Both the position numbers and the translations under genes were made by a program. From NCBI GenBank assembly GCA_947473125.1, contig CANJDH010000011.1, positions 1 to 64,000 on the forward strand: a stretch of DNA of 64,000 nt, read 5' to 3'. Position 1 is the stretch's first letter, and the number at the start of each line of letters is the position of its first letter. Below the pieces are notes generated by a model. That model made no database searches. It was not told the origin of the DNA and saw nothing but the letters and a program-made list of their open reading frames with translations. Positions 8,490 through 22,422 of this stretch are shown piece after piece. Source of the stretch: Burkholderiales bacterium. GTDB lineage: Bacteria; Pseudomonadota; Gammaproteobacteria; Burkholderiales; JAEUOS01.

Positions 8490-9830
8490 TCAGCCTTTGT
8501 ATTCCAGCACATGCATGCCGGCGTTCCAGTCGGAGACGAACATCAGGCCTTCCTTGGTGACCCACAGGTCGGCGGTCTTGGCGTCAAGGCCGATGTTGGG
8601 GCGCGGGTCGACCAGCTTCTTGGGCGTAGGCGGCGACCAGTAGGCCACTTCTTTCGGTGCGAACTGATTCTTGATGTCGAACACGCGCACACCGGCATTG
8701 TTGTAGGTGGCGAAGATGGTGTCTTCGGTCTGCATCGACCCGGGGCGATTCTCGTGCAGGTTGTGCGGCCCGAAGGTACCGGGCTGCGAACAGTAGTCGC
8801 GGTCTGTCGGGGTCGGCAGGGTCGCGATCGGCACCGGTGATTCGGGTGCGCGCATGTCGAGCACGAAAGTGTGGAAGGTGCCCTTGGCACATTTCTGGGC
8901 ATTGGCTTCGTCGGCGATCACGGCCAGCTTGCGGCCCGGCAACACCAGCGGCGTGTGCGTGCCGCCAGGGAACGGCGGCGACCAGTTGATGCGCGAGATC
9001 AGTTTCGGATTGGCCGGGTCGGTGAGGTCGTGCACCGTGAGGCCGCCGTCACGCCAGGCGCCCAGGCCGATGTTGCCGCCGGTGAGCATGTGGTGCAGGG
9101 CGTAGCGCTTGCCCTTGGGATTCTGCGGCGTTTCACCGGCGGCGCGATTCATGCCGGGCAGCGCCCACTTGGAGACGATTTCCGGCTTGGTGATGTTCTG
9201 CAGGTCGACCACACACAGCATGTGGTCGGTGTAGCCGTCGAAATGCGCCGACACATAGGCGTAGCGCCCGCCGGTCCACCAAGTGCGGTTGATGCCGATG
9301 CCGGGCATTTCCAGGAAGGCGATCTCCTTCATGTCGGCAGGATTGGAGATGTCGTGAATCGACAGGCCGGAGCGGAATTTCTGGCGCTTGGTCAGGGTGT
9401 CGACCGGGTTGTTCTCGAAGTAGCCGCGCAGGCCGTCATACGATTGCATCGACACGATGTTGGCACCGTTGGCGACCAGCATGATGTCGTCGTGCGTCTG
9501 GATCTGGTGCGTGCGCGTGCCTTTGCCGGCGGTAAAGAAGTGCACCGGCTTGAGCTTGCGCGGGTTGGACGCATCGAGCACGGTAATCCCGTCGCTGAAC
9601 ATGTGGCCGACAAACACATGTTTCGTTTTGGGCGAGTACATCACCTGCACACCGTCGGGCTTGCCGCCCTGGTCGCTGTAGGACACATGCTTGATGCGGT
9701 GGCCGATGCCTTGCGGCGGGACCGGCTTGTCTGCTTTCTTGGTCGCAGCCTGCGCAACCAGCGGGGTGCTGCCCAATGCGGCCATCCCGAGCAGGCGTTT
9801 GAGGTGGTCACGTCTCGTCATGTTGCCCAT
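8490..9830 (-). CDS. Tat-exported LVIVD-repeat beta-propeller-type protein
   Basis: This 446-residue protein has a twin-arginine signal (MTRRDHLKRLLG, hydrophobic stretch, cleavage after VAQA). The mature part contains repeated LVIVD-like strands such as GITVLDASNP, GLSIHDISNPADM, GLTVHDLTDPANP and GVRVFDIKN, each ending with a D-x-(S/T)-x-P turn, consistent with a seven-blade-like propeller. The function is unknown; proteins of this type are often near quinoprotein or cytochrome genes, as here. The ATG at 9830 has a near-perfect GGAGG five bases away and is preferred over the frame extending to 9875. Tat export suggests folding, and perhaps a cofactor, before secretion. Confidence 0.8.
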   Translation of the reverse strand: MGNMTRRDHLKRLLGMAALGSTPLVAQAATKKADKPVPPQGIGHRIKHVSYSDQGGKPDGVQVMYSPKTKHVFVGHMFSDGITVLDASNPRKLKPVHFFTAGKGTRTHQIQTHDDIMLVANGANIVSMQSYDGLRGYFENNPVDTLTKRQKFRSGLSIHDISNPADMKEIAFLEMPGIGINRTWWTGGRYAYVSAHFDGYTDHMLCVVDLQNITKPEIVSKWALPGMNRAAGETPQNPKGKRYALHHMLTGGNIGLGAWRDGGLTVHDLTDPANPKLISRINWSPPFPGGTHTPLVLPGRKLAVIADEANAQKCAKGTFHTFVLDMRAPESPVPIATLPTPTDRDYCSQPGTFGPHNLHENRPGSMQTEDTIFATYNNAGVRVFDIKNQFAPKEVAYWSPPTPKKLVDPRPNIGLDAKTADLWVTKEGLMFVSDWNAGMHVLEYKG

Positions 9831-9890
9831 ATTGCCTCCTGAAGGGCCGCGAAGGCCCGATTGAAAATTCAGCATTTTTCTGTTTTTGGC

Positions 9891-11113: not shown

Positions 11114-13261
11114 CTAATCGAAGCGAATCGCGGCGCTGAACCCCAGGGTCCAGTTGCGGCCCGGCGCAGGCTCAAAAAAGCGGCCGTTGGTTTCGTTGAC
11201 GATCACCGACCCGCTGTAACGCGTGTTGCCAATATTGTCGATGCGCAGGAACTCCGAAATCGTCCACTTGCCGCTGCGTTGCTCGAAACCACCACGCAGG
11301 TTGGCCACGGTGTAACCGGCTGCGGCGTCGCTGTTGCGGTCATCGGCAAACATCTGCGCGACGCGACGCGCCTCCAGCGCGACGTAAGGATTGCCAAGGT
11401 CATTGCCGCGCGGCGCACGCCATAGCGCTTCGACAAACAGGCTGCGACGCGGCACGCCAGGGAGCGCATTGCCTGCGGCCACCGGAACGTTGGGCGCGGC
11501 ACACGGTACCAGCAGGCAGGTCAGGAACCCGTCTCGATAGGTCGCTTCAATCAGGGTATACGCCGCGCTCAAGCTGACGCCGGCACCAATCAACTTGCTC
11601 GCCGCCAGCTCGATGCCGCGCCGCTGGGTACGACCGGCATTCTGAAAAATGGCGCGTCCGCCTGCGTTGGTCAGGGTGACGATCTCGTCAACGGTGTCGG
11701 CGCGGAACAAAGCGGCGGTCACGGTACCGCCCTCAATCTGCGCCTTCAGGCCAAGCTCCGTGTGCCGGCTGGTTGCCGGCTTGAGCGCGAAATTGAGGCC
11801 TGTGCCGCTGGCGCGATAGGCGAGCTCATTGAAGGTGGGCGTTTCATACCCGCGCCCGACAGTGGCATACAGGTTCAGGCGCTCGGTGGCGCTCCACACA
11901 ATGCCAGCCGCCGGCGTGGTCGCGCGATAAGTGGTTGCACCGCTGTCGTCACCATTCCCCGTGACGATAAAGTTGTCACGCGAATTGAAGGCCACGGCCG
12001 AATGACGCGCACCCGCCGATAGTTTGATCGTCGGCCAGGCCTGCCACTCACCCTGGATGAACTGGCTGAAATTGGTGACGCGATTGTTTTCGTCGCGACG
12101 CAACGCCCCCAATACCCCTAGGGCCGTCGGTGCGGCAGACGTGCCAAGAAAGTTGAGGTAGCCGCGGCGCAATTCGTTCTGGATTTCACGGCTGACGCCC
12201 GCCGTCAGGTGGTAGGCGCCGTCACGGGCAAAGCCCTTGTGGATCCAGCGTGCATCGAATCCGTAATAGCCGCGATCAAGGTCAATTACACCGCCCGGGC
12301 TGGCGGCGCCTGCCTGGGTGGCGGTCGGGATCGCCTGGTATTGCTCGATCTTGCGCTCACCGAAATAACCCGAGACGCGCAGCTGGTTCTGCGGCGAAAA
12401 CGCGTGCTCCAGCACCATGCCCGACTGCGCCTGGTAGGTCGATTTGCGCGTGTTGAACTGCAGTGCGGTCGGCGTAGCCTGGCCCGGGTTTGCTGCCAGT
12501 TCAGCGCGCGTCAAGCCGAGCGCGTCTTGAGCATTGGGCATGTTGACGCGGTTATAGGTGACGGCGAGCGTGGTGGCGTCGGACAGGCGGAATTTGACGC
12601 GCGCATTCTCGAGCTCGCGCCGTGCCGCGTTGTGGTCGCGCGAGCCATCGGTGGCAAACTGGCTCGCATCAAGGGTGTAACCAGTGTTGCCAACCGTCCC
12701 CGCCACCTGCATGCCAAGGCGCCAGGTGCGAAAGCTGCCGTAGCTCGCCGACGGTGTGATGCGCAAGCCCTGCGGCGCTTCTTCACTGAAAATGGCAATG
12801 ACGCCACCGGCCGCATTGCCGTGCAATGCGGAGAACGGCCCGCGCAGCACTTCAACACGCTCGGCTGACGACAGCGAAAAATGGGACGCCTGCCCCGAGC
12901 CATCCGGCATACTCGCCGGAATGCCGTCGGCGTACAGGCGAATCCCGCGCACGCCGAACGATGAGCGCGCGCCGAACCCGCGCGACGAAATCTGCAGATC
13001 CTGCGCGTAGTTTTGCCGGTCGCCGATGTTGAGGCCTGGCACCCGCGCCAGGGTTTCAGACAGGTTGACCTGCCGCTGTCCCTCCTTGAGCGCACGGCCC
13101 GAGACTACATCCACCGCTGCGGGCGTTTCGAACGCCGGTTGCGCGACGCTGGTCGCGGTCACGACGACCGACGGCGGCTCGCCGTCGGCAGTGAGCGGCG
13201 GCGTTTGCGCGAACGCGGCGCCGGAAACGAGCAGCGTTGCAAGTGCCCTGCCACCCCTCAT
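11114..13261 (-). CDS. pqqU: TonB-dependent outer-membrane receptor, PqqU/YncD-like
   Basis: This 715-residue TonB-dependent receptor has a short signal peptide (cut after AAFAQ), a TonB-box-like VVVTAT, a plug domain and a 22-strand-type barrel. Several blocks agree closely with E. coli YncD (PqqU), the PQQ importer, as I remember it: RQNYAQDLQISSRGFG, RGIRLYADGIPASMPDG, VEVLRGPFSALHGNAAGG, and a C-terminus with GSVIVNETNGRFFEPAPGRN ending in Ala-x-Arg-Phe-Asp. Its start overlaps the stop of the cytochrome c gene (ATGA), and a PQQ-type sugar dehydrogenase lies two genes upstream. That supports uptake of the quinone cofactor across the outer membrane. A siderophore role is less likely. Confidence 0.85.
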   Translation of the reverse strand: MRGGRALATLLVSGAAFAQTPPLTADGEPPSVVVTATSVAQPAFETPAAVDVVSGRALKEGQRQVNLSETLARVPGLNIGDRQNYAQDLQISSRGFGARSSFGVRGIRLYADGIPASMPDGSGQASHFSLSSAERVEVLRGPFSALHGNAAGGVIAIFSEEAPQGLRITPSASYGSFRTWRLGMQVAGTVGNTGYTLDASQFATDGSRDHNAARRELENARVKFRLSDATTLAVTYNRVNMPNAQDALGLTRAELAANPGQATPTALQFNTRKSTYQAQSGMVLEHAFSPQNQLRVSGYFGERKIEQYQAIPTATQAGAASPGGVIDLDRGYYGFDARWIHKGFARDGAYHLTAGVSREIQNELRRGYLNFLGTSAAPTALGVLGALRRDENNRVTNFSQFIQGEWQAWPTIKLSAGARHSAVAFNSRDNFIVTGNGDDSGATTYRATTPAAGIVWSATERLNLYATVGRGYETPTFNELAYRASGTGLNFALKPATSRHTELGLKAQIEGGTVTAALFRADTVDEIVTLTNAGGRAIFQNAGRTQRRGIELAASKLIGAGVSLSAAYTLIEATYRDGFLTCLLVPCAAPNVPVAAGNALPGVPRRSLFVEALWRAPRGNDLGNPYVALEARRVAQMFADDRNSDAAAGYTVANLRGGFEQRSGKWTISEFLRIDNIGNTRYSGSVIVNETNGRFFEPAPGRNWTLGFSAAIRFD

Positions 13262-13890
13262 GGCGCAGCGAGGCTCGCCAGGTAGTCTGCCAGCACCTCG
13301 ATGTCGGCCTGCGACAGTGCCTGGGTGGCCGACGTCATGGTGCCGTCAAAGTCGGCGCGCGTCGTCGCACGGAACTGGCGCAGCTGGCTCAGCAGATATT
13401 CGTGCCGTTGGCTGGCAATGCGCGGAATGTGCTGCTGGCCGGTCAGCGTCGCGGTGTGGCAGGCAACGCAGTTTTGCGCCCGGGTAATCGCCTTGCCCTC
13501 GGCGATGCGTTCCGGCGTGGTCTTGTGCGCCGGCGGTGCCATTTTCTGCGACGAGAAGTAGGCCGCTAGGTCATTGAGGTCGGCGTTGCTGAGCTTCTCG
13601 ACAAAGGGGGTCATCTGGTCGTTCTTGCGCCGCCCTTCGCGAAACATGAACAGGGCCGTGACGATAAACTGGCGCGGTTGGCCGGCCAGTGAGGGCGTAC
13701 CGGGAATCACCGAATTGCCGTCGGCGCCATGGCAAGCCGCGCACACTTGTGCCTTGACGCGCCCCTCTTCCAAACCCGCGTGGCTAGTAGGTGATAGGCA
13801 GGCCAGAACAAAAACGGCGGCCGTTTGCACGGCCGCCGTTCTGCTCCGCTGCCGCGCGCCCACAGGGCGCGCGAAGCGGGAGAGGATCAT
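13258..13890 (-). CDS. Dihaem class I cytochrome c (c4-type), periplasmic
   Basis: This 210-residue exported cytochrome has a signal peptide with an Arg-rich n-region and cleavage near TSHA (residue 38). Two haem sites follow: CAACH at residues 50-54 and CVACH at 141-145, each in a cytochrome c fold, which is the c4 arrangement. It should carry electrons from the quinoprotein to the respiratory chain. The gene overlaps both neighbours by 4 bp (ATGA at each end), so it is translationally coupled to the sugar dehydrogenase and the PqqU-like receptor. A strong terminator-like hairpin lies inside the signal-peptide coding region. Confidence 0.88.
   Translation of the reverse strand: MILSRFARPVGARQRSRTAAVQTAAVFVLACLSPTSHAGLEEGRVKAQVCAACHGADGNSVIPGTPSLAGQPRQFIVTALFMFREGRRKNDQMTPFVEKLSNADLNDLAAYFSSQKMAPPAHKTTPERIAEGKAITRAQNCVACHTATLTGQQHIPRIASQRHEYLLSQLRQFRATTRADFDGTMTSATQALSQADIEVLADYLASLAAP
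13806..13840 (-). terminator. Terminator-like hairpin inside the cytochrome c signal-peptide region
   Basis: AACGGCGGCCGT (13813-13824 on the plus strand) pairs with ACGGCCGCCGTT (13829-13840) over a 4-base loop. Read on the minus strand the stem is followed by TTTTTGTT. That is a textbook intrinsic terminator shape, about 50 bp after the dehydrogenase stop and within the next open frame. It could cause partial termination between the two genes. Confidence 0.55.
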
Positions 13891-15125
13891 GAAGCTTTTT
13901 TGGCGTAGCTGACGCGGTAGATGATGCCGTTGTAATCGTCCGAGAACAGGATCGAACCGTCTTTCATCTGCAGCACGTCGACCGGACGGCCCCACATCGG
14001 CGGGTCGCCTGCAGCATTTTCCAGGAAGCCGTCAACGAAGGGATGTGACGTCACCTTGCCTTTGGCATCCACTGAAACGCGGATCAGGTTGTAGCCGTGC
14101 TTGGGGTCGCGATTCCAGGAACCGTGCTGGGCAATGATCATGCTGTTCTGATATTCCTTGGGGAACATCTTGCCGGTATAGAACTTCATGCCGAGCGGAG
14201 CGATGTGCGCGCCGAGCTTGAGTTCGGGTTTGGTGAACTGGTCGCAGGAGCGGTGCTGGCCGAAGATCGGATCGAGCACATCGCCCTGATGGCAATACGG
14301 AAAGCCAAAATGCTGGCCTTTGGTTTTGACCACGTTGAGTTCATCATTCGGCAGGTCGGTGCCCATCCAGTCGCGGCCATGCTCGGTGAACCAGAGCTGC
14401 TTGGTCTTGGGGTGGAACGCCATGCCGACGCTGTTGCGAACGCCCTGCGCGAAATTTTCCAGCGTGCCGGTTTTCGGATCGACGCGCACGATCGACGCTT
14501 CGTTGTAGTTCGGCATGGTGATGTTTTGCGGCGAGCCGATGTTGAAATAGAGCTTGCCGTCCGGGCCCAGCGCCAGATACTTCCAGAAGTGGCCAGGCTG
14601 GCTGTTCGGATCGAGGTTGTCGATCACAACCTTGCCTTCACCGGGATTGTCGAGTTTCGACTCGATGCCGTCATAGCGGGTAATGCGATGGCGCTCGGCT
14701 ACGTACAGCGTGCCCTTGTCGAACGCGACGCCATTGGGCGACTTCATGCCCTTCATGATGGTCTTGACTTCGCGCTTGCCGCCGTTGTCGACAATCGCAT
14801 AGACGTTGGACAGGTTGCGGTTGCTGACAAACACGGTGCCGTTGTCGCCAAGCGCCAGCGAGCGCGCCTCGGGCACGTTGTCGACCCATACTTCGATCTT
14901 GAAGCCGTCCGGCACGCGCAGTTTGCTGACCGGCAGGTCTTTGGATGGGCGGCCGGTGAGGTGCGGCGCGAAGGGGTGCAGCGGCGACTGGGACAGCTCC
15001 GCTGCCATACCCTGTTTCCAGGCTGGCGCGCCGGCCGGGGTAGCGGGGGTGACGCCTGCCTGGGCAAATACGGCGCCGGCAACCGCTGCCAGCACGGCCG
15101 CGCCGAGGATGTTGTGAATACGCAT
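13887..15125 (-). CDS. PQQ-dependent sugar (aldose/sorbosone-type) dehydrogenase
   Basis: This 412-residue secreted quinoprotein belongs to the soluble glucose/sorbosone dehydrogenase family (COG2133-like propeller). The signal peptide ends AVFAQA. Family features are visible: LPDGFKIEVW-type first strand (VPDGFKIEVWVDNV), PNGVAFDKGTLYVAERHRI, the active-site His in GHFWKYLALGPDGKLYFNIG, the GVRNSVGMAFHPKTKQLWFTEHG block and a final DGSILFSDDYNGIIYRVSY strand. It would oxidise a sugar or alcohol in the periplasm using PQQ. The ATG at 15125 follows an AGGAGAGAG site. It leads an operon with the cytochrome c and the PqqU-like receptor. No PQQ biosynthesis genes are in the window. Confidence 0.87.
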   Translation of the reverse strand: MRIHNILGAAVLAAVAGAVFAQAGVTPATPAGAPAWKQGMAAELSQSPLHPFAPHLTGRPSKDLPVSKLRVPDGFKIEVWVDNVPEARSLALGDNGTVFVSNRNLSNVYAIVDNGGKREVKTIMKGMKSPNGVAFDKGTLYVAERHRITRYDGIESKLDNPGEGKVVIDNLDPNSQPGHFWKYLALGPDGKLYFNIGSPQNITMPNYNEASIVRVDPKTGTLENFAQGVRNSVGMAFHPKTKQLWFTEHGRDWMGTDLPNDELNVVKTKGQHFGFPYCHQGDVLDPIFGQHRSCDQFTKPELKLGAHIAPLGMKFYTGKMFPKEYQNSMIIAQHGSWNRDPKHGYNLIRVSVDAKGKVTSHPFVDGFLENAAGDPPMWGRPVDVLQMKDGSILFSDDYNGIIYRVSYAKKAS

Positions 15126-15246
15126 GTTGTCTCTCTCCTGTGTTGTCCTCCGCTGGCACGTCAGGGCATGCCAGCGGGGAAGGCATTGTAGGCGCGCTTG
15201 GGGCGGATTGCCAAGTGCCTGAGTCAACGGTATTTTGACATCACCC

Positions 15247-15324: not shown

Positions 15325-16104
15325 CTAGCGGCGCACACCGGGGGTCTCGACCAGCAGAGCCTGGCCGCGCCAGCCCAGATAAAGCTCCAGGTCGAGCAGG
15401 TCTTGTGCGCCCGGTAGCGGCATCTCGGCACGTACGCCAAAGTAGCAAGCGCGCAGGCGGCGGTGCAGCGAGCCGGCGGCCTGCCACTCGAGCCGGTAGG
15501 CCGGGTAGGCATTGCCATGACCCTGGCTGATCGGTTCGGCGAGCAGGCGTTTGCCGGCGTTCCACTCGTGGCAATGCATGCAGGCCAGGTTCATCTGGCC
15601 CATGCGTCGCTGGTACAGCACCTGGCCTCGCTCGAAGTGCGGCCGCGCCCCATCGTGAATCGCCACATTGAGCGGCAGGCCGCGCGACTGGTGCGCAACA
15701 TACGCGGTAAGCGCGAGCAGCTCTTCGGATTCGTAGGCAAGGGCGGGTGCGCCCTGGCGCGCGGTGCGACACTGGTTGATGCGGCCCTCGAGGTTGAGCA
15801 GTTTTCCGGCCTTGTTGTCAAACGCCGGGTGGCGCGCCGCAACCCCCTTCATGCTGGCAGCGGCGTCTTTATGGCAGGACGCGCAGGCCTGCGCGGACGC
15901 ACCCGTTGCGGCATTCCACAGCTTTGCGCCCTTTTCGACCCAGAGCATTGCCGGGTTGGCAAAGGTATCGTCCTGCATCGCCTTGATATCCGGGCTCATG
16001 TAGGTGCTGCCCGAGCGCAGCTCCGGCAAGGCGATGTTGCGCTGTTGGGCCTGCGCGAGGCATGCCGCCGCGCCCAACAGGAATGCCGCAGCCATCAGCA
16101 TCAT
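15325..16104 (-). CDS. soxA: SoxA-like dihaem cytochrome c
   Basis: This 259-residue exported protein has the dihaem SoxA layout: signal peptide (residues 1-20), first haem motif CASCH at 74-78, second CMHCH at 175-179, and the active-site Cys at 220 in RRLRACYFGVRAEM. In thiosulfate oxidisers SoxA pairs with SoxX and joins thiosulfate to the SoxY arm. It is the last of four tightly spaced genes soxX-soxY-soxZ-soxA. All three conserved cysteine sites are intact, so the enzyme should be functional. No SoxB gene follows it, and the next gene downstream is the quinoprotein dehydrogenase. Confidence 0.9.
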   Translation of the reverse strand: MMLMAAAFLLGAAACLAQAQQRNIALPELRSGSTYMSPDIKAMQDDTFANPAMLWVEKGAKLWNAATGASAQACASCHKDAAASMKGVAARHPAFDNKAGKLLNLEGRINQCRTARQGAPALAYESEELLALTAYVAHQSRGLPLNVAIHDGARPHFERGQVLYQRRMGQMNLACMHCHEWNAGKRLLAEPISQGHGNAYPAYRLEWQAAGSLHRRLRACYFGVRAEMPLPGAQDLLDLELYLGWRGQALLVETPGVRR

Positions 16105-16116
16105 GAATCGTGCGAC

Positions 16117-16440
16117 TCAGCCGGCCACCGACACCGGCGCACGCTCGGTACCACGCACGCCGGTATCGTCAATCCAGTCAAAGACAAGTTCGCCCGAATC
16201 GCGCGCCATCACATAAAACGTGATCAGCGGGTTGGCCGAAATGCCGGAGCTGGTTTCGGCCCGGAACACTTCAACCTTGTTGTAACGGCAGGTCACCTCG
16301 CGAATCACGTTGCGCGGGATCGGCTTGCCGTCGTCGGTCAGGCGATAGCCGGTTTCCATCGCATGGCGAATGATGACCTTGACTTCGAAGGCCTCGCCGC
16401 GCCGCACTTGCGCGGGAACCTGGATACGCGCGTCAGCCAC
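16117..16440 (-). CDS. soxZ: SoxZ-like carrier subunit
   Basis: This 107-residue SoxZ-like immunoglobulin-fold protein, of usual family length, shows the typical opening ARIQVPAQVRRGEAFEVKVI, IRHAMETGYR with two basic residues, then IREVTCRYNKVEVFRAE and a final LVFDWIDDTGVRG segment. It has no signal peptide, as is normal because SoxZ is exported with SoxY by the Tat route. It lies 3 bp downstream of soxY and 12 bp upstream of soxA. Confidence 0.92.
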   Translation of the reverse strand: MADARIQVPAQVRRGEAFEVKVIIRHAMETGYRLTDDGKPIPRNVIREVTCRYNKVEVFRAETSSGISANPLITFYVMARDSGELVFDWIDDTGVRGTERAPVSVAG

Positions 16441-16443
16441 GAT

Positions 16444-16899
16444 TCAGCTCCCGTCCAGACATGCCGATACCGTCACGACGATATCGGCAGTCGCGGAGTG
16501 CAGCGAGCCATCGGCCAGGGTAGCGAGCGCGGCCACGCGCTGCGAACCGGCAAGCCGCACGCGCGATTCGATCTCGACGCGCGACACCGCTACCGGAAAA
16601 TGGAACACCGCCATCTGCGCCACCGGGTTTTTCTCGGAGAACAGATGGATGCTGCGCACCTCGGCGCCGGCGGCAAACGGGGCCGTCATCTGGATCTTGA
16701 CCGGAACCACGTTGCCGTTGTCGGCAATGCGCGGAATGTCGAGCTTGAGGCGCCCGATACCGACCCGCCGACCCGCCACAAATGCCTTGAAGGCGGCGAC
16801 CTCAGGCTCGTCCTCGGCCAGCGCTTCAATCGGCAGGAGCGGCAGGGCGGCAGCGGCGAGCAGCACGCGGCGGCGCGGGGAGGATGGGCGATCAATCAT
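16444..16899 (-). CDS. soxY: SoxY-like carrier with a non-canonical C-terminal arm
   Basis: This 151-residue SoxY-like protein has a Tat-type signal (RRRVLLAAAALPLLPIEALA). In SoxY the protein ends in a flexible GGCGG arm whose Cys carries the sulfur substrate. Here the end reads VTVSACLDGS: the Cys (residue 147) is kept but the glycines are not, and three residues extend beyond the normal end. This recalls a SoxY paralogue group with AACIE-type arms that I remember from family lists. The carrier may therefore serve a different substrate or partner. It is followed by soxZ with a 3-bp gap. Confidence 0.88.
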   Translation of the reverse strand: MIDRPSSPRRRVLLAAAALPLLPIEALAEDEPEVAAFKAFVAGRRVGIGRLKLDIPRIADNGNVVPVKIQMTAPFAAGAEVRSIHLFSEKNPVAQMAVFHFPVAVSRVEIESRVRLAGSQRVAALATLADGSLHSATADIVVTVSACLDGS

Positions 16900-16905
16900 G
16901 AGGTG

Positions 16906-17403
16906 TCAACGCAGGGTCGAAAGATACACCACCAGGTCTTCAACCTGTTGCGGCGTCAAGACCGGCTTGCCGCGATAACTCGACGCCACCTCGCGCAGGC
17001 CTTCAGTCTTGAAATAGGCCGGCATGATGGTATCGGGGTTGAGGCGCGACGAATCGGCCACGCGCAAGCGCAACTGCGCTGCCGTCAGGCGACTGCCGGC
17101 TCCGTCAAGCGGCGGCGCAAGGTTGCCGGAAAAGCGCACTGCCGGATCATTCAAGCCGTGGCACAGCACGCAATTGGCCGGGTCACGCGAGAGCAGCAGC
17201 GCCCGGCCACGGCGCGCGTCGCCGGGCTCCGCCAAGGGCTGGGCAATGCCGTCACCCAGCACTGCAATCTCGGCCGCTTGGGCCGCAACGGTGTAAGGCA
17301 TGGCGCACCAAATCGCCGCCAACAATTGGCGCTGCAGCAGGCGCTGCAGCACTCGCTTGTGCAAACTGAAACGATTTCCAGTGGGTGCGTTGGGCCCGGA
17401 CAT
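16906..17403 (-). CDS. soxX: SoxX-like monohaem cytochrome c
   Basis: This 165-residue SoxX-like protein has a basic n-region and hydrophobic segment with a cleavage site near AAQAAE (residue 43). The haem motif CVLCH is at 78-82 and the axial Met at 127 in [14 protein letters not shown], the family signature. The usual [17 protein letters not shown] end is present. It should form the SoxXA heterodimer with the SoxA gene three positions downstream. The ATG at 17403 is taken as the start; an in-frame upstream extension exists but adds charged residues before the signal. The gene is divergent from the thiolase gene across 97 bp. Confidence 0.9.
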
Positions 17404-17500
17404 TGCCAGATTATTACGTGGGTCGGCCTCAAACCGCAATGACTCGCGTATGATTTACGACGATTGTTGGGCTCCCCTACCATCCCGAAATGGACATGTC

Positions 17501-18706
17501 ATGACCGAAGCTTATGTATTCGAAGCGATTCGCACGCCGCGCGGCAAGGGCAAAAAGGACGGATCGCTGCATGAAGTCAAGCCGGTCACGCTGCTCTCAG
17601 GCTTGCTGCGCGAACTGCAGGCGCGCCACGACTTCGACACCGCCGAAGTCGAAGATGTGGTGATGGGCTGCGTGACGCCGATTGGCGACCAGGGTGCGTG
17701 CATCGCCAAGACGGCTGCGCTGGCGGCTGGATGGGACTGGCGCGTGGCGGGTGTGCAGCTCAATCGTTTTTGCGCCTCCGGCCTCGAAGCGGTCAACCTT
17801 GGCGCGCAGAAAGTGCGCTCGGGTTGGGAAGACCTGGTGGTAGCTGGTGGCGTGGAATCGATGAGCCGTGTGCCGATGGGGTCGGACGGCGGCGCGTGGG
17901 CCCTCGACCCGGAAACCAATTTCGATACGGCGTTCCTGCCACAGGGCATCGGCGCCGACCTGATCGCATCGCTCGACGGCTACGCACGCGCAGACGTCGA
18001 CGGTTATGCGCTGCGTTCGCAACAAAAAGCTGCAGCGGCGCAGGCTGCGGGCCGCTTCGATCGCAGCGTGGTGCCGGTGAAGGACCGCATCGGCCTGACC
18101 ATTTTGGAACGCGATGAATTCATCAAGCCGCGCACCACCATGGAAGGCCTGGGTTCGCTCAAGGCCAGTTTCGAGCAGATGGGTGCGATGGGGTATGACA
18201 CGGTGGCGTTGCAAAAGTACCCGCAGGTCGAGCGGATTCGCCACGTGCATACCGCAGGCAATTCCTCCGGGATCGTCGACGGTGCGGCAGCGGTATTGAT
18301 CGGCAACGAAGCCAAGGGCAAGCAGCTCGGCCTGACGCCGCGCGCACGCGTTGTCGCGACCGCGCTCACCGGCTCGGACCCGACCATCATGCTCACCGGC
18401 CCGGCGCCGGCGGCACGCAAGGTGCTGGCCAAAGCCGGCCTCACGATCGACCAGATTGATCTGTTCGAAGTCAATGAAGCCTTCGCTTCGGTGGTAATGC
18501 GCTTCATGAACGAGATGAAGGTGCCGGAAGAAAAGGTTAACGTCAATGGCGGCTCAATCGCCTTGGGCCATCCGCTCGGCGCCACCGGCGCGATGATCCT
18601 GGGCAACCTGATCGACGAATTGCACGCGCGCAAGCTGCGTTATGGCCTGGTGACGCTGTGCGTGGGCGGCGGCATGGGGATCGCCACCATCATCGAGCGG
18701 GTTTGA
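17501..18706 (+). CDS. Acetyl-CoA acetyltransferase (thiolase)
   Basis: This 401-residue degradative-type thiolase has all catalytic elements: the nucleophilic Cys in [12 protein letters not shown] (about residue 93), [10 protein letters not shown] for the His, and [12 protein letters not shown] for the second Cys. The enzyme cleaves 3-ketoacyl-CoA or condenses acetyl-CoA. The ATG at 17501 ([15 protein letters not shown]) matches the normal thiolase start. The enoyl-CoA hydratase gene begins one base inside its stop codon (TGATG), so the two are coupled and fit a beta-oxidation-type step pair. Confidence 0.93.
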
Positions 18707-19518
18707 TGGCCGCGGCAAGGGCGCCCGTCGAACACGGTGTGCGCGTCGAGACAAAAGACCGCATCACTACGGTGATCCTCGATCGGCCCGCGGTGAAGAA
18801 CGCCGTCGATGGCGCGACGGCTGAAGCCCTGGCGCGAATTTTTCGCGCGTTTGATGCTGACGCCAATGCCGACGTTGCGGTGCTGTGCGGCGCCAATGAC
18901 ACGTTCTGCGCCGGTGCCGACCTCAAGGCGGTGTCAAACGGCATCGGCGACAACCCAAAAGCGAACCCGCTCAACCGCGACATGCAGGCCACCGCGCCGA
19001 TGGGCTGCACGCGCCTGATGCTGTCGAAACCGGTAATTGCGGCGGTCAGCGGTTACGCCGTCGCGGGCGGCACCGAGCTTGCGCTCTGGTGCGACCTGCG
19101 CGTGATGGAAGAGACCGCCACCTTCGGCATCTTCTGCCGGCGCTGGGGCGTGCCGCTGATCGATGGCGGCACGGTGCGGCTGCCGCGCCTGATCGGCATG
19201 AGCCGCGCCCTGGACCTGATTCTCACCGGGCGCCCGGTAGGGGCCAAAGAGGCGCTCGAGATCGGATTGGCCAATCGCGTTGTACCGCATGGCACGGCGC
19301 GTGCCGCAGCCGAAGCACTGGCGCGCGAGGTCGCGAAGTTTCCGCAAGCCTGCATGCGCTCTGACCGGCAGAGCGCCTACCAGCAATGGGGGCATGGCCT
19401 TGATGGCGCACTCGCCAATGAATTCGCGCATGGCATGCGCACCATCGAGAGCGGTGAAACCGTGGCCGGTGCGAGCCGCTTCACCGCCGGCGCCGGACGG
19501 CATGGCAGTTTCGGCTAG
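18706..19518 (+). CDS. Enoyl-CoA hydratase/isomerase (crotonase) family protein
   Basis: This 270-residue crotonase-fold enzyme has the oxyanion-hole segments NDTFCAGADLKAV and VAAVSGYAVAGGTELALWCD (written here in part), followed by GIFCRRWGVPLIDGGTVRLP. The position of the second catalytic Glu in classical hydratases reads RRWGVPL, so hydratase activity is not assured and another crotonase reaction is possible. Its ATG overlaps the thiolase stop. The usual C-terminal helices are present. Probably part of an acyl-CoA degradation unit with the upstream thiolase. Confidence 0.9.
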   Translation: MAAARAPVEHGVRVETKDRITTVILDRPAVKNAVDGATAEALARIFRAFDADANADVAVLCGANDTFCAGADLKAVSNGIGDNPKANPLNRDMQATAPMGCTRLMLSKPVIAAVSGYAVAGGTELALWCDLRVMEETATFGIFCRRWGVPLIDGGTVRLPRLIGMSRALDLILTGRPVGAKEALEIGLANRVVPHGTARAAAEALAREVAKFPQACMRSDRQSAYQQWGHGLDGALANEFAHGMRTIESGETVAGASRFTAGAGRHGSFG

Positions 19519-19632
19519 CGCGGCCATTGCACACATTCGCGTCAACGACAGCACCGGGGTTTTCGTGTTAAATGCGGAACACTACTTTTTGATTGACAAC
19601 AAGACAGTACAAACCACCAAAGGAGATTGCGG

Positions 19633-20106
19633 ATGGCCAAGCTCAATGTGAACGGAAAGGCGGTCGACGTTGCGGTCGAACCGAATACACCCTTGTTGTG
19701 GGTACTGCGCGAGCAGGTCGGATTGACCGGCACCAAATTTGGTTGCGGCATGGCCCAGTGCGGCGCGTGCACCGTGCACATCGACGGCGTCGCCACCCGC
19801 ACCTGCGTGCTGCCGGTCAGCGCGGTCAAGCCGACCCAGAAGGTCGTGACCATCGAGGGTCTGTCGAAAAATTCGTCCCACCCGATCCAGAAAGCCTGGA
19901 TTGCCATGGACGTGCCGCAATGCGGCTACTGCCAGTCGGGCATGATCATGGCGGCATCGGCATTGTTGGCCAAAAAGCCCAAGCCGACCGACAAGGACAT
20001 CGACGATGCGATGACCAACATCTGCCGCTGCGGAACCCACCAGCAGGTACGCAATGCGATCCACGCCGCCGCCGCCGGCGTTGGCGCTGCCAAAGCCAAA
20101 GCTTGA
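19633..20106 (+). CDS. iorA: [2Fe-2S] subunit of a molybdenum hydroxylase (IorA/CoxS-like)
   Basis: This 157-residue small subunit has the plant-type ferredoxin motif [13 protein letters not shown] (cluster 1, with its fourth Cys in RTCVLP) and the helical domain motif CGYCQSGM followed by [15 protein letters not shown] (cluster 2). It passes electrons from the molybdenum cofactor of its partner. The ATG at 19633 follows AGGAG by seven bases, so the TTG two codons earlier is not needed. The large subunit begins 18 bp after its stop. The two-subunit set without an FAD subunit is the isoquinoline 1-oxidoreductase arrangement. Confidence 0.92.
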
Positions 20107-20124: not shown

Positions 20125-22422
20125 ATGAACCAATTGATTGAAGCCCTCGCCGCCGGCCGTACCGATGAACCCGCCGTCGCTGCCGAACTGGCTGCCGCCG
20201 GCCTCGTACCGGCACTCCGCAGTGCCGGCCCCGCAAGCACCGCACGCCGCCGCTTTATTGTCAGCTCGGCCGCTGCCGTAGGCGGCCTGTCCCTGGGCAT
20301 GACACTGCCCTCCGGCGACGCCTGGGCACAGGTGGAAAAGGGCGCCGACCTGTCGCAACCCGAGATCAACGCATGGGTTGTGATCAAGCCCGACGACACA
20401 GTCGTGATTCGCATCGCCCGCTCGGAAATGGGCCAGGGTACCCTCACCGGCCTGGCGCAGATGGTCGCCGAAGAGCTGGAGTGCGACTGGTCGAAGGTCA
20501 CCACCGAGCAACCCACACCGGGGCAGAACCTCGCGCGCAATCGCGTCTGGCGCGACATGTCCACCGGCGGTTCGCGCGGCATTCGCCAATCGCACGACTA
20601 CGTGCGCCAGGGCGGCGCTGCAGCGCGCGAGATGCTCATCGCCGCCGCAGCCAAGGAGTGGAATGTGCCGACCGCCGAATGCCGTGCGGCCAACAGCGTC
20701 ATCACCCACACCCCTACTGCGCGCAAGACCACCTACGGCAAAGTCGCCACCGCCGCCGCCAAGATGGAGGTACCCAAGGATATCAAGCTCAAGGATCGCA
20801 AGGACTGGAAGCTGATCGGCAAGGGTGTGGCGCGCCTCGACACCAAGGAAAAGGTCAACGGTTCGCGCGTGTACGGCGCCGACCTCAAATTGCCCGGCAT
20901 GCTCAATGCCGCCGTCAAGGCCTGCCCGGTATTCGGCGGCAAGATTGCCAGCTATGACGCGGCCAAAGTTACCGGCATGGCCGGTGTCAAGGGCGTGTAC
21001 AAGGTCAGTGACGATGCCGTCGCGGTGGTTGCCGACACCTGGTGGCATGCCAAGACAGCCCTTGATGCACTGCCCATCACCTGGGACAACGGCGCCAATG
21101 CCGCGGTGAGCAGCGCCTCGATTGCCGCAAACAACAAAGCCGGCCTCGACGCCGTCGATGCCTTTGTCGGCAACAAGGTCGGTGATGCCGCCGGCGCGAT
21201 CGCCGGCGCCGCCAGGAAGATCGAAGCCACCTACAGCTACCCGTTCCAGAATCACGCGACGATGGAGCCGATGAACGCCACCGCGCTCTGGACCGCCGAC
21301 AAGTGCGAAGTCTGGTGCCCGACCCAGAATGCCGACGCGGCGCTGGCCGCCTGCGCCGCTGCAGCGGGCTTGCCGCAGAACAAGTGCGACGTGTACAAGA
21401 TCAACCTGGGCGGCGGCTTCGGCCGGCGCGGCGCGTTCCACGACTACGTGCGCCAGACGGTCAGCATCGCCAAGCAGATGCCCGGCACCCCGGTCAAGCT
21501 GCTCTGGTCGCGCGAGGAAGACATGCTGCACGGCGCCTACCACCCGGTGACGCAATGCAAGATGACGGCGGGTGTCGATGCGCAGGGCAATGTCACCGGA
21601 CTGCACATGCGCATTTCCGGCCAGTCGATCCTCGCGTCGGTGTTGCCGACGTTGATGGTCAACGGCGCCGACCTGCTGCAATTCCAGGGCCTGTTGCCAG
21701 TGGGTCACGACAAGTTCCCGGACCACGCCATCAGCTATGCGTTCGACAACCTGATGATCGACCATGCCATGCGCAACACCCACGTGCCTCCGGGATTCTG
21801 GCGCGGCGTGAATGCCAACCAGAACGCGATCTACATGGAGTGCTTTGTCGATGAGGTGGCCCACGCCACCAACCAGGATGCGCTGGCGTTGCGCCAGAAG
21901 CTGATGGCCAAGAACCCGAAAGGGTGGGCAGTGCTCAAGGCCGCGGCCGACCAGGGCGGCTGGGGCAAGCCGCTGCCCAAGGGCAGCGGACGCGGCCTCG
22001 CGGCGTTTTACTGCTTCGGCTCCTACATTGCGGCATGCGCCGAAGTGTCGGTCGCCGCCGACGGCAAGCTCAAGATCAAGCGCATCGTCGCGGCCACCGA
22101 CCCGGGCAATGCGGTCAATCCCAAGCAGATCGCCATGCAGGTGGAAGGATCCTTCGTCTACGGCCTCGGTGCGATGCTGTATCAGGAATGCACGGTGAAA
22201 GACGGCGCGATCGAGCAGACCAACTTCCACACCTACCAGCCACTCAAGATCAGCGAAATGCCGAAGGTGGAAACCATCGTCATGCCGTCGGGCGACTTCT
22301 GGGGCGGCGTCGGCGAGCCAACCATTGCGGTGGCCGCGCCGGCAGTTCTCAACGCCATCTTCAACGCGACCGGCAAGCGCCTGCGCAACCTGCCCCTCAA
22401 GGACACCAGCCTGCGCGCCTGA
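20125..22422 (+). CDS. iorB: Molybdopterin-binding subunit of an IorB-type dehydrogenase
   Basis: This 765-residue large subunit belongs to the xanthine dehydrogenase family, IorB branch. About 40 residues precede an internal Tat-like signal (ARRRFIVSSAAAVGGLSLGM), so the enzyme is probably exported or membrane-bound with its iron-sulfur partner. Molybdopterin-contact segments are visible: SEMGQGTLTGLAQMVAEEL, GGGFGRRGAFHDYVRQ, and the C-terminal VGEPTIAVAAPAVLNAI with the likely base Glu. The substrate is a heteroaromatic ring or aldehyde; it cannot be fixed from sequence. No accessory (XdhC-like) gene is adjacent. A terminator follows at 22491. Confidence 0.9.
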   Translation: MNQLIEALAAGRTDEPAVAAELAAAGLVPALRSAGPASTARRRFIVSSAAAVGGLSLGMTLPSGDAWAQVEKGADLSQPEINAWVVIKPDDTVVIRIARSEMGQGTLTGLAQMVAEELECDWSKVTTEQPTPGQNLARNRVWRDMSTGGSRGIRQSHDYVRQGGAAAREMLIAAAAKEWNVPTAECRAANSVITHTPTARKTTYGKVATAAAKMEVPKDIKLKDRKDWKLIGKGVARLDTKEKVNGSRVYGADLKLPGMLNAAVKACPVFGGKIASYDAAKVTGMAGVKGVYKVSDDAVAVVADTWWHAKTALDALPITWDNGANAAVSSASIAANNKAGLDAVDAFVGNKVGDAAGAIAGAARKIEATYSYPFQNHATMEPMNATALWTADKCEVWCPTQNADAALAACAAAAGLPQNKCDVYKINLGGGFGRRGAFHDYVRQTVSIAKQMPGTPVKLLWSREEDMLHGAYHPVTQCKMTAGVDAQGNVTGLHMRISGQSILASVLPTLMVNGADLLQFQGLLPVGHDKFPDHAISYAFDNLMIDHAMRNTHVPPGFWRGVNANQNAIYMECFVDEVAHATNQDALALRQKLMAKNPKGWAVLKAAADQGGWGKPLPKGSGRGLAAFYCFGSYIAACAEVSVAADGKLKIKRIVAATDPGNAVNPKQIAMQVEGSFVYGLGAMLYQECTVKDGAIEQTNFHTYQPLKISEMPKVETIVMPSGDFWGGVGEPTIAVAAPAVLNAIFNATGKRLRNLPLKDTSLRA

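Follow-up and report, generated by a model that had tools for sequence, protein, structure and literature searches.

Introduction

In the canonical Sox pathway, SoxXA conjugates thiosulfate to a cysteine of SoxY, SoxB removes sulfate and SoxCD oxidises the sulfane, a scheme whose single steps have not been directly demonstrated (PMC5336275). Here we analyse a soxX-soxY-soxZ-soxA operon in the first 64,000 nucleotides (the window) of contig CANJDH010000011.1 from a Burkholderiales bacterium (assembly GCA_947473125.1), whose SoxY carries a variant of the canonical GGCGG arm. It belongs to a type of gene set that has been described before but not explained, and that proves to be widespread and closely bound to a single clade of molybdenum (Mo) hydroxylases.

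A similar set was described in Starkeya novella by Kappler and colleagues in 2013, where a second cluster, soxX2Y2Z2A2F2, accompanies a Mo enzyme of the xanthine oxidase (XO) family (Snov_1975/1976) and contains no soxB or soxCD; the authors suggested that it may be without function in that organism or may act under other conditions (PMC3797975). In Bradyrhizobium diazoefficiens, soxY1 is essential for thiosulfate oxidation and soxY2 is not (PMC5748708), and divergent SoxY types have been described near other enzymes, including pyrroloquinoline quinone (PQQ) alcohol dehydrogenases (PMC11237559, PMC12997753). We found no paper reporting a general association of soxXYZA with Mo hydroxylases, most subscription journals lying outside the search, and nothing relevant in the literature on the AACIE arm after which one SoxY-related family is named. 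Such variant sets are easily mistaken for an "incomplete Sox" pathway and for evidence of thiosulfate oxidation.

Results

Variant soxXYZA operons are linked to one clade of molybdenum hydroxylases

Comparison of loci across genomes gives good support to a coupling between variant soxXYZA and a conserved partner, a Tat-exported Mo hydroxylase of two subunits. In the window its genes lie 2.2 kb from soxXYZA, on the opposite strand and divergent from it, and encode a [2Fe-2S] small subunit of the IorA or aldehyde dehydrogenase small subunit type (19627-20106, plus strand; Pfam Fer2_2 and Fer2; 168 bits with PDB 8gy3_B) and a large subunit (20125-22422, plus strand; Pfam MoCoBD_1/2) with a Tat signal (RRRFIVSS), a GGGFGRR motif and the catalytic-loop sequence FWGGVGEP. 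The molybdenum cofactor-binding domains, the [2Fe-2S] subunit and the GGGFGRR and GVGE motifs identify the enzyme as a member of the XO family, and the best PDB match of the large subunit, by sequence and by fold, was 8gy3_C (template modelling score 0.80). A thiolase and an enoyl-CoA hydratase (17492-19518, plus strand) stand between soxX and the Mo genes; this linkage was found only in this family (also in genomes G001 and G002), and the two genes are probably bystanders.

We sampled 250 genomes of the window's order, 46 of which had matches to TIGR04487, the NCBIfam model for "SoxY-related AACIE arm" proteins, and retrieved 40 variant loci from them; in all, 44 order loci (45 with the window) were compared with 25 canonical soxB loci, 20 from the same genomes as the variant loci and 5 retrieved earlier, with gene presence scored from clusters of the called genes. 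The large subunit of the Mo enzyme occurs at 39 of the 45 variant loci, the window included, and at none of the 25 canonical ones (Fisher 1e-13); the small subunit occurs at 33 and none, respectively. The usual gene order is [2Fe-2S] subunit, Mo large subunit, soxX, soxY, soxZ, soxA, all on a single strand, and three architectures can be distinguished: in two of them the Mo enzyme accompanies either soxXYZA or just soxYZ, and in the third soxXYZA has no Mo enzyme beside it. In the soxYZ-only genomes that were checked, SoxA is encoded elsewhere in the genome.

Co-inheritance was assessed by searching the same 250 genomes with the window's Mo large subunit. A clear variant SoxY was defined as one scoring at least 119 bits, a line set after the scores had been seen, within the gap between 119.5 (the window) and 96.6. 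With this definition, the Mo hydroxylase is present in all 39 order genomes that encode a clear variant SoxY, against 7 of the 211 others (p about 1e-38), and one of these seven, G173, encodes a more diverged SoxY directly beside the Mo enzyme. Genomes with a solitary soxXYZA set (G004 and G248, and G122 and G226 for their second copies) encode a close Mo enzyme at another site. The soxYZ-linked large subunits, including the window copy, form one clade with a support of 1.0, and these unlinked close copies fall inside it, while further Mo hydroxylases encoded by these genomes lie outside. Conservation within the clade is strong, with a mean column identity of 63% over 22 sequences, and W726, the tryptophan directly before the catalytic GGVGE loop, is invariant in 46 of 46 members, usually being proline outside the clade. 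The window's own genome (G000; locus L252) has a second Mo hydroxylase of this clade on contig C6 (15153-17423, minus strand), 60% identical to that of the window and interrupted by one in-frame TAA, as in a pseudogene or through a sequencing error.

To place these loci in a broader frame, GTDB genomes were scanned with an alignment of variant SoxA, which returned at least 586 relatives, of which the best 80 were kept (GTDB loci). This sample was drawn from loci with SoxA and therefore misses the soxYZ-only architecture; it may also overlap the order sample in some genomes, and the taxon names of metagenome-assembled genomes are given as deposited. The relatives belong to Beta-, Alpha- and Gammaproteobacteria, Rokubacteria and Binatota, and the genera include Bradyrhizobium, Azospirillum, Ancylobacter, Filomicrobium, Rhodomicrobium, Duganella and Limnohabitans. 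The Mo large subunit is encoded at 51 of the 58 long GTDB loci that include SoxY; neither SoxB nor a GSDH gene occurs at any of the 58. A flavoprotein of the FccB/SoxF type, that is, of flavocytochrome c sulfide dehydrogenase (FCSD), belongs to the operon at 26 of the 80 GTDB loci and at 1 of the 44 order loci; both FCSD domains are present in those tested, often together with a small monohaem cytochrome c, and no FccB match was found in the window. Beyond the Mo enzyme, the sox genes and this FccB/cytochrome pair, no gene was conserved across lineages among the compared loci. XdhC, a cytosolic sulfuration helper, is in the operon at 2 of the 80 GTDB loci. Its adjacency was considered as a way to choose between substrate delivery and re-sulfuration and was rejected, since XdhC is encoded elsewhere in every genome checked, in two of them beside unlinked Mo enzymes. 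At three GTDB loci (L163, L165 and L166), variant soxYZA has no Mo hydroxylase nearby, and a SoxC-like gene lies 4-5 kb downstream of it on the opposite strand.

The operon encodes dihaem SoxA and a SoxY of the AACIE-arm clade

The window proteins were scored against the curated NCBIfam models with their cut-offs and against Pfam. The four genes occupy 15325-17403, as the original prediction had it, and are open reading frames (ORFs) of the minus strand in the order soxX-soxY-soxZ-soxA; adjacent genes are separated by 6, 3 and 12 bases, the layout of an operon. SoxX (16906-17403, minus strand; the ORF extends further, to a TTG at 17439) is a monohaem cytochrome c with a single CxxCH motif, CVLCH, and scored 73.9 bits with TIGR04485 (cut-off 61). 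SoxA (15325-16104, minus strand) scored 219.4 bits with TIGR04484 (cut-off 110) and is of the dihaem type, having two CxxCH motifs (CASCH and CMHCH) and the cysteine that ligates the active-site haem (C220, in RRLRACYFG); its best PDB match was the Rhodovulum-type dihaem SoxA 1h31 (170 bits). The predicted integrity of the haem and active-site cysteines is therefore borne out by the motifs, all of which were found, and SoxZ (16117-16440, minus strand) is as normal as had been claimed, with 83.3 bits against a TIGR04490 cut-off of 76. The haem number of SoxA follows the class of the locus, being two at 33 of 33 variant loci and one at 23 of 23 canonical loci, and the SoxA sequences split cleanly along the same line.

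SoxY (16444-16899, minus strand) has a Tat-type signal (SPRRRVL) and an Ig-like carrier domain (Pfam SoxY, 91 bits). Its sequence does end in VTVSACLDGS, as had been noted; this arm (16447-16476, minus strand) contains Cys147 (codon 16459-16461), with SAC-L-D where GGCGG is expected, and so lacks the C-terminal GGCGG by which true SoxY is recognised. Among the three SoxY models TIGR04487 gave the best score, 120.2 bits, under its cut-off of 172; the true SoxY model TIGR04488 gave 89.1 bits (cut-off 125), and the model of quinoprotein-associated SoxYZ, TIGR04557 (cut-off 140), gave 59.9 bits with SoxY and 42.2 bits with SoxZ, which are here separate, unfused genes. A structure model of SoxY, built from the alignment of relatives, had a predicted local distance difference test (pLDDT) score of 86, mostly above 90 in the Ig-like core and 48 in the final residues, as expected of a mobile arm, and its best PDB match was the SoxYZ complex of Paracoccus pantotrophus.

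The tree of SoxY with AACIE-arm paralogues, proposed as a check in the original prediction, resolved three groups: canonical proteins with GGCGG arms, fused SoxYZ with GGCSAP-like arms, and a Mo-linked group that includes the window SoxY and has modest support (0.74) and a long branch. Within it the window SoxY shares one clade with L091-L106, whose SoxY exceed the TIGR04487 cut-off. We accordingly rejected the idea that the arm is a private change of this SoxY; it is a variant of a family already named by NCBI. The carrier cysteine is invariant among 34 aligned relatives, and in nearly all GTDB variant SoxY it is followed at +2 by an acidic residue (SACLDA, LACLEG, AACIDG, AACVEG). The arm of the clade, which is present in hundreds of genomes, has the pattern [SA]-A-C-[LIV]-[DE]. 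Where soxYZ adjoins the Mo hydroxylase and there is no local soxXA (L102, L105, L109, L112, L115 and L124), the arms are of other kinds (TGCG, AGCGL, SGCGL, SSCG and SDCGL), so that the arm varies with the architecture.

A canonical sox cluster is encoded elsewhere in the genome

That the window has no soxB or soxCD was correctly noted, and the contig that holds it (C11) has no match to the SoxB or SoxC models. The notion that the organism has no soxB was rejected by the genome search: SoxB is encoded on contig C72 (864 bits, above cut-off) behind soxA and soxX, with this canonical soxA beginning at the very edge of the contig, contig C30 encodes a complete SoxC (640 bits), and another SoxC is cut short by the end of C59. 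The relative G002 shows conserved synteny with C59 upstream of soxC, as far as SoxC residue 375, and with C72 from soxA onward. This synteny makes evident a canonical soxCDYZAXB cluster that is broken between the ends of the two contigs, soxDYZ lying in the missing piece. No second SoxY or SoxZ was found on the contigs of the genome, and as soxD-soxY-soxZ is the stretch between C59 and C72, this absence is best read as an assembly gap. The relatives G001-G004 have both carriers, a GGCGG SoxY in the soxB cluster and a SACI/LDGS-type SoxY in the soxXYZA cluster. A standard soxB cluster elsewhere was one half of what the original prediction had set against a specialised carrier, the other half being proof that this SoxY simply carries thiosulfate-derived sulfur; it is the first half that was found.

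Across the 43 genomes with variant SoxY, 11 have no SoxB (SOXB INDEPENDENCE), all 11 being at least 96% complete, and SoxA scores above cut-off in 10 of these 11. Among the 39 order genomes with a clear variant SoxY, SoxB is likewise lacking from 11. Absence of SoxA in G184 was rejected as evidence, since the contig ends inside the operon (L151). Another SoxB-less type was seen in G019, G043 and G066, genomes without any SoxB that have soxXYZA clusters with GGCG arms (L152, L153 and L154).

Neighbouring genes of the window

Downstream of soxA by about 0.1-0.2 kb, on the same strand, lies a gene for a soluble quinoprotein resembling sugar and sorbosone dehydrogenases (13887-15227, minus strand; Pfam GSDH, 69.5 bits). 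Such a GSDH-like gene was found at none of the 44 variant order loci and at 1 of the 80 GTDB loci, the truncated locus L215, where it also follows soxA; the quinoprotein was rejected on these counts as the partner of the carrier. The original proposal of a specialised carrier with another substrate or partner therefore stands as regards a SoxB-independent carrier, which has its own arm clade and occurs in genomes without SoxB, and falls as regards the quinoprotein.

A TonB-dependent receptor (11114-13261, minus strand), which scored 698 bits with the PQQ transporter model PqqU (cut-off 1200), lies near this quinoprotein and a dihaem cytochrome c, and together they are possibly a separate group for PQQ uptake and quinoprotein function. 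At 8490-9875 (minus strand) a 461-residue protein has a likely Tat signal, a match to LVIVD repeats and a trace match to methanethiol oxidase (14.7 bits). The ORFs sampled between 24 and 61 kb are of a general catabolism type (two acyl-CoA dehydrogenases, a short-chain dehydrogenase, a TauD-type dioxygenase, an esterase, an M20 peptidase and a nitronate monooxygenase), and apart from the TauD-family match no further sulfur-related gene was seen among them.

Discussion

We give about even weight to the reading that soxXYZA and the Tat-exported Mo hydroxylase, of the IorAB or membrane aldehyde dehydrogenase type, are two halves of one envelope module in which the cargo of the SoxY arm is passed to the Mo enzyme. 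The evidence behind it consists of the genes themselves, their conserved linkage and co-inheritance, the separate clades, the dihaem SoxA and the independence from SoxB; from it we infer the docking of SoxYZ on the Mo enzyme, the cargo of the arm and the reaction. Docking is proposed because SoxXA and SoxYZ are kept at loci that have neither SoxB nor SoxCD and are co-inherited with a Mo clade that has its own active-site signature. In such a module, dihaem SoxXA would oxidatively load Cys147 of SoxY with a sulfur species, which may be sulfide, sulfane, thiosulfate or an organic thiol, and in many relatives the FCSD encoded in the operon may supply or handle the sulfur. The arm, which in place of Gly-Gly has an acidic residue at +2 from the cysteine, would present its cargo to the Mo hydroxylase rather than to SoxB or SoxCD, and the Mo hydroxylase would oxidise the cargo with water, the electrons passing through the [2Fe-2S] subunit to c-type cytochromes. 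To the more general idea that a Sox-type arm delivers covalent cargo to an XO-family Mo hydroxylase, whether a tethered substrate or a persulfide that re-sulfurates the exported cofactor, we assign a likelihood a little under even.

Several points weigh against such a module. To our knowledge, Mo hydroxylases of the XO family act on carbon and not on protein-bound sulfur. Some loci have soxXYZA and no nearby Mo enzyme, others have the Mo enzyme and soxYZ and no soxXA, seven genomes have the Mo enzyme and no clear variant SoxY, and the two halves in the window are divergent, at a distance of 2.2 kb. Both the contact between SoxYZ and the Mo enzyme and the substrate are deduced from the genomic context. 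In Starkeya novella, moreover, neither SoxAX nor SoxYZ from the equivalent operon was detected, and the operon was expressed very weakly on glucose, methanol or thiosulfate (PMC3797975).

Among other explanations, the one that comes nearest, although we think it unlikely, is that SoxXA and SoxYZ, with FccAB where present, form a periplasmic persulfide with which the SoxY arm restores the terminal sulfido ligand of the Mo enzyme. Mo hydroxylases require a Mo=S ligand, SoxB and SoxCD would be of no use for such a task, FccB fits as a source of sulfur, variant SoxYZ was never found without the Mo enzyme, and XdhC, the usual cytosolic helper, is almost never in the operon. However, all genomes checked encode one or more XdhC family proteins elsewhere, by which the enzyme could be sulfurated before it is exported, a module so rich in cytochromes is heavy for a repair job, and the Mo enzyme does occur in the seven genomes without a clear variant SoxY. 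That the carrier never occurs without the enzyme and the enzyme occasionally without a clear carrier weakly favours oxidation of the cargo over sulfuration of the cofactor. Somewhat less probable still is that the Mo enzyme uses an organosulfur compound or an aldehyde and that SoxXYZA, again with FccAB, only clears sulfide, thiosulfate or another nucleophile that is released or poisons the reaction. A role of this kind has likewise been proposed for the SoxYZ-like carriers beside PQQ alcohol dehydrogenases, FccB handles sulfide, and two unrelated SoxYZ-like clades adjoin periplasmic dehydrogenases linked to cytochrome c, namely fused SoxYZ with PQQ enzymes (PMC11237559, PMC12997753) and the present clade with Mo enzymes; nevertheless, the near-perfect co-inheritance with one Mo clade and the clade-specific tryptophan suggest a tighter link, and with SoxB absent from the loci there is nothing to finish the job.

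Improbable in our view is an accessory set for thiosulfate oxidation, in which variant SoxYZ would feed the SoxB and SoxCD of the genome and the Mo hydroxylase would be a co-regulated bystander. The genome does encode SoxB and SoxC, and by score SoxX, SoxA and SoxZ are ordinary Sox proteins, but 11 of 43 variant-SoxY genomes lack SoxB, co-inheritance with the Mo enzyme is 39 of 39, and soxY2 of B. diazoefficiens, which likely belongs to this clade, is dispensable for thiosulfate oxidation (PMC5748708). Very improbable indeed is the earlier idea that the carrier serves the GSDH-like quinoprotein and the cytochrome adjoining soxA: its position on the same strand close behind soxA, repeated at L215, speaks for it, and both its near absence from the other loci and the TIGR04557 score far under the cut-off speak against it.

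If the coupling of soxXYZA to the Mo hydroxylase is true, it would show what the hitherto unexplained "second sox clusters" found in rhizobia, Starkeya and Burkholderiales do, and Sox-type carriers would have been recruited at least twice, by PQQ and by Mo enzymes, to serve periplasmic dehydrogenases. Culturable hosts of the operon include Bradyrhizobium, Ancylobacter and Duganella.

Compared with known systems, the window shares with canonical Sox the folds of SoxXA, SoxY and SoxZ, the swinging-arm cysteine and the active-site cysteine of SoxA, and differs from it in that the arm is not GGCGG, the locus lacks both SoxB and SoxCD, and SoxA is dihaem where the canonical SoxA of these genomes is monohaem. 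The nearest solved relative of both Mo subunits is the membrane-bound aldehyde dehydrogenase of Gluconobacter oxydans (8gy3), which uses a membrane cytochrome c subunit and for which we know of no SoxYZ partner; a membrane cytochrome c subunit of this type was not seen at the window locus. The TIGR04557 carrier of the ped cluster (PP_2677) is, like that of the window, a SoxYZ-type carrier tied to a periplasmic dehydrogenase linked to cytochrome c and not to SoxB, but it is a fused SoxYZ that goes with a PQQ enzyme and SoxH, and the sampled fused carriers have GGCSAP-like arms and form a separate clade. Members of TIGR04487 above the cut-off share the clade of the window SoxY and adjoin a Mo hydroxylase, although the arm in the window reads SACLDGS and not AACIE. 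The second cluster of S. novella resembles the window in its soxXYZA without soxB or soxCD, its two-subunit Mo enzyme of the XO family and the complete sox cluster elsewhere in the genome; its operon contains soxF (FccB), which the window lacks, whereas in the window the Mo genes are divergent, with the thiolase and enoyl-CoA hydratase in between. In clusters of the Starkeya type, soxF is an optional rather than a defining component.

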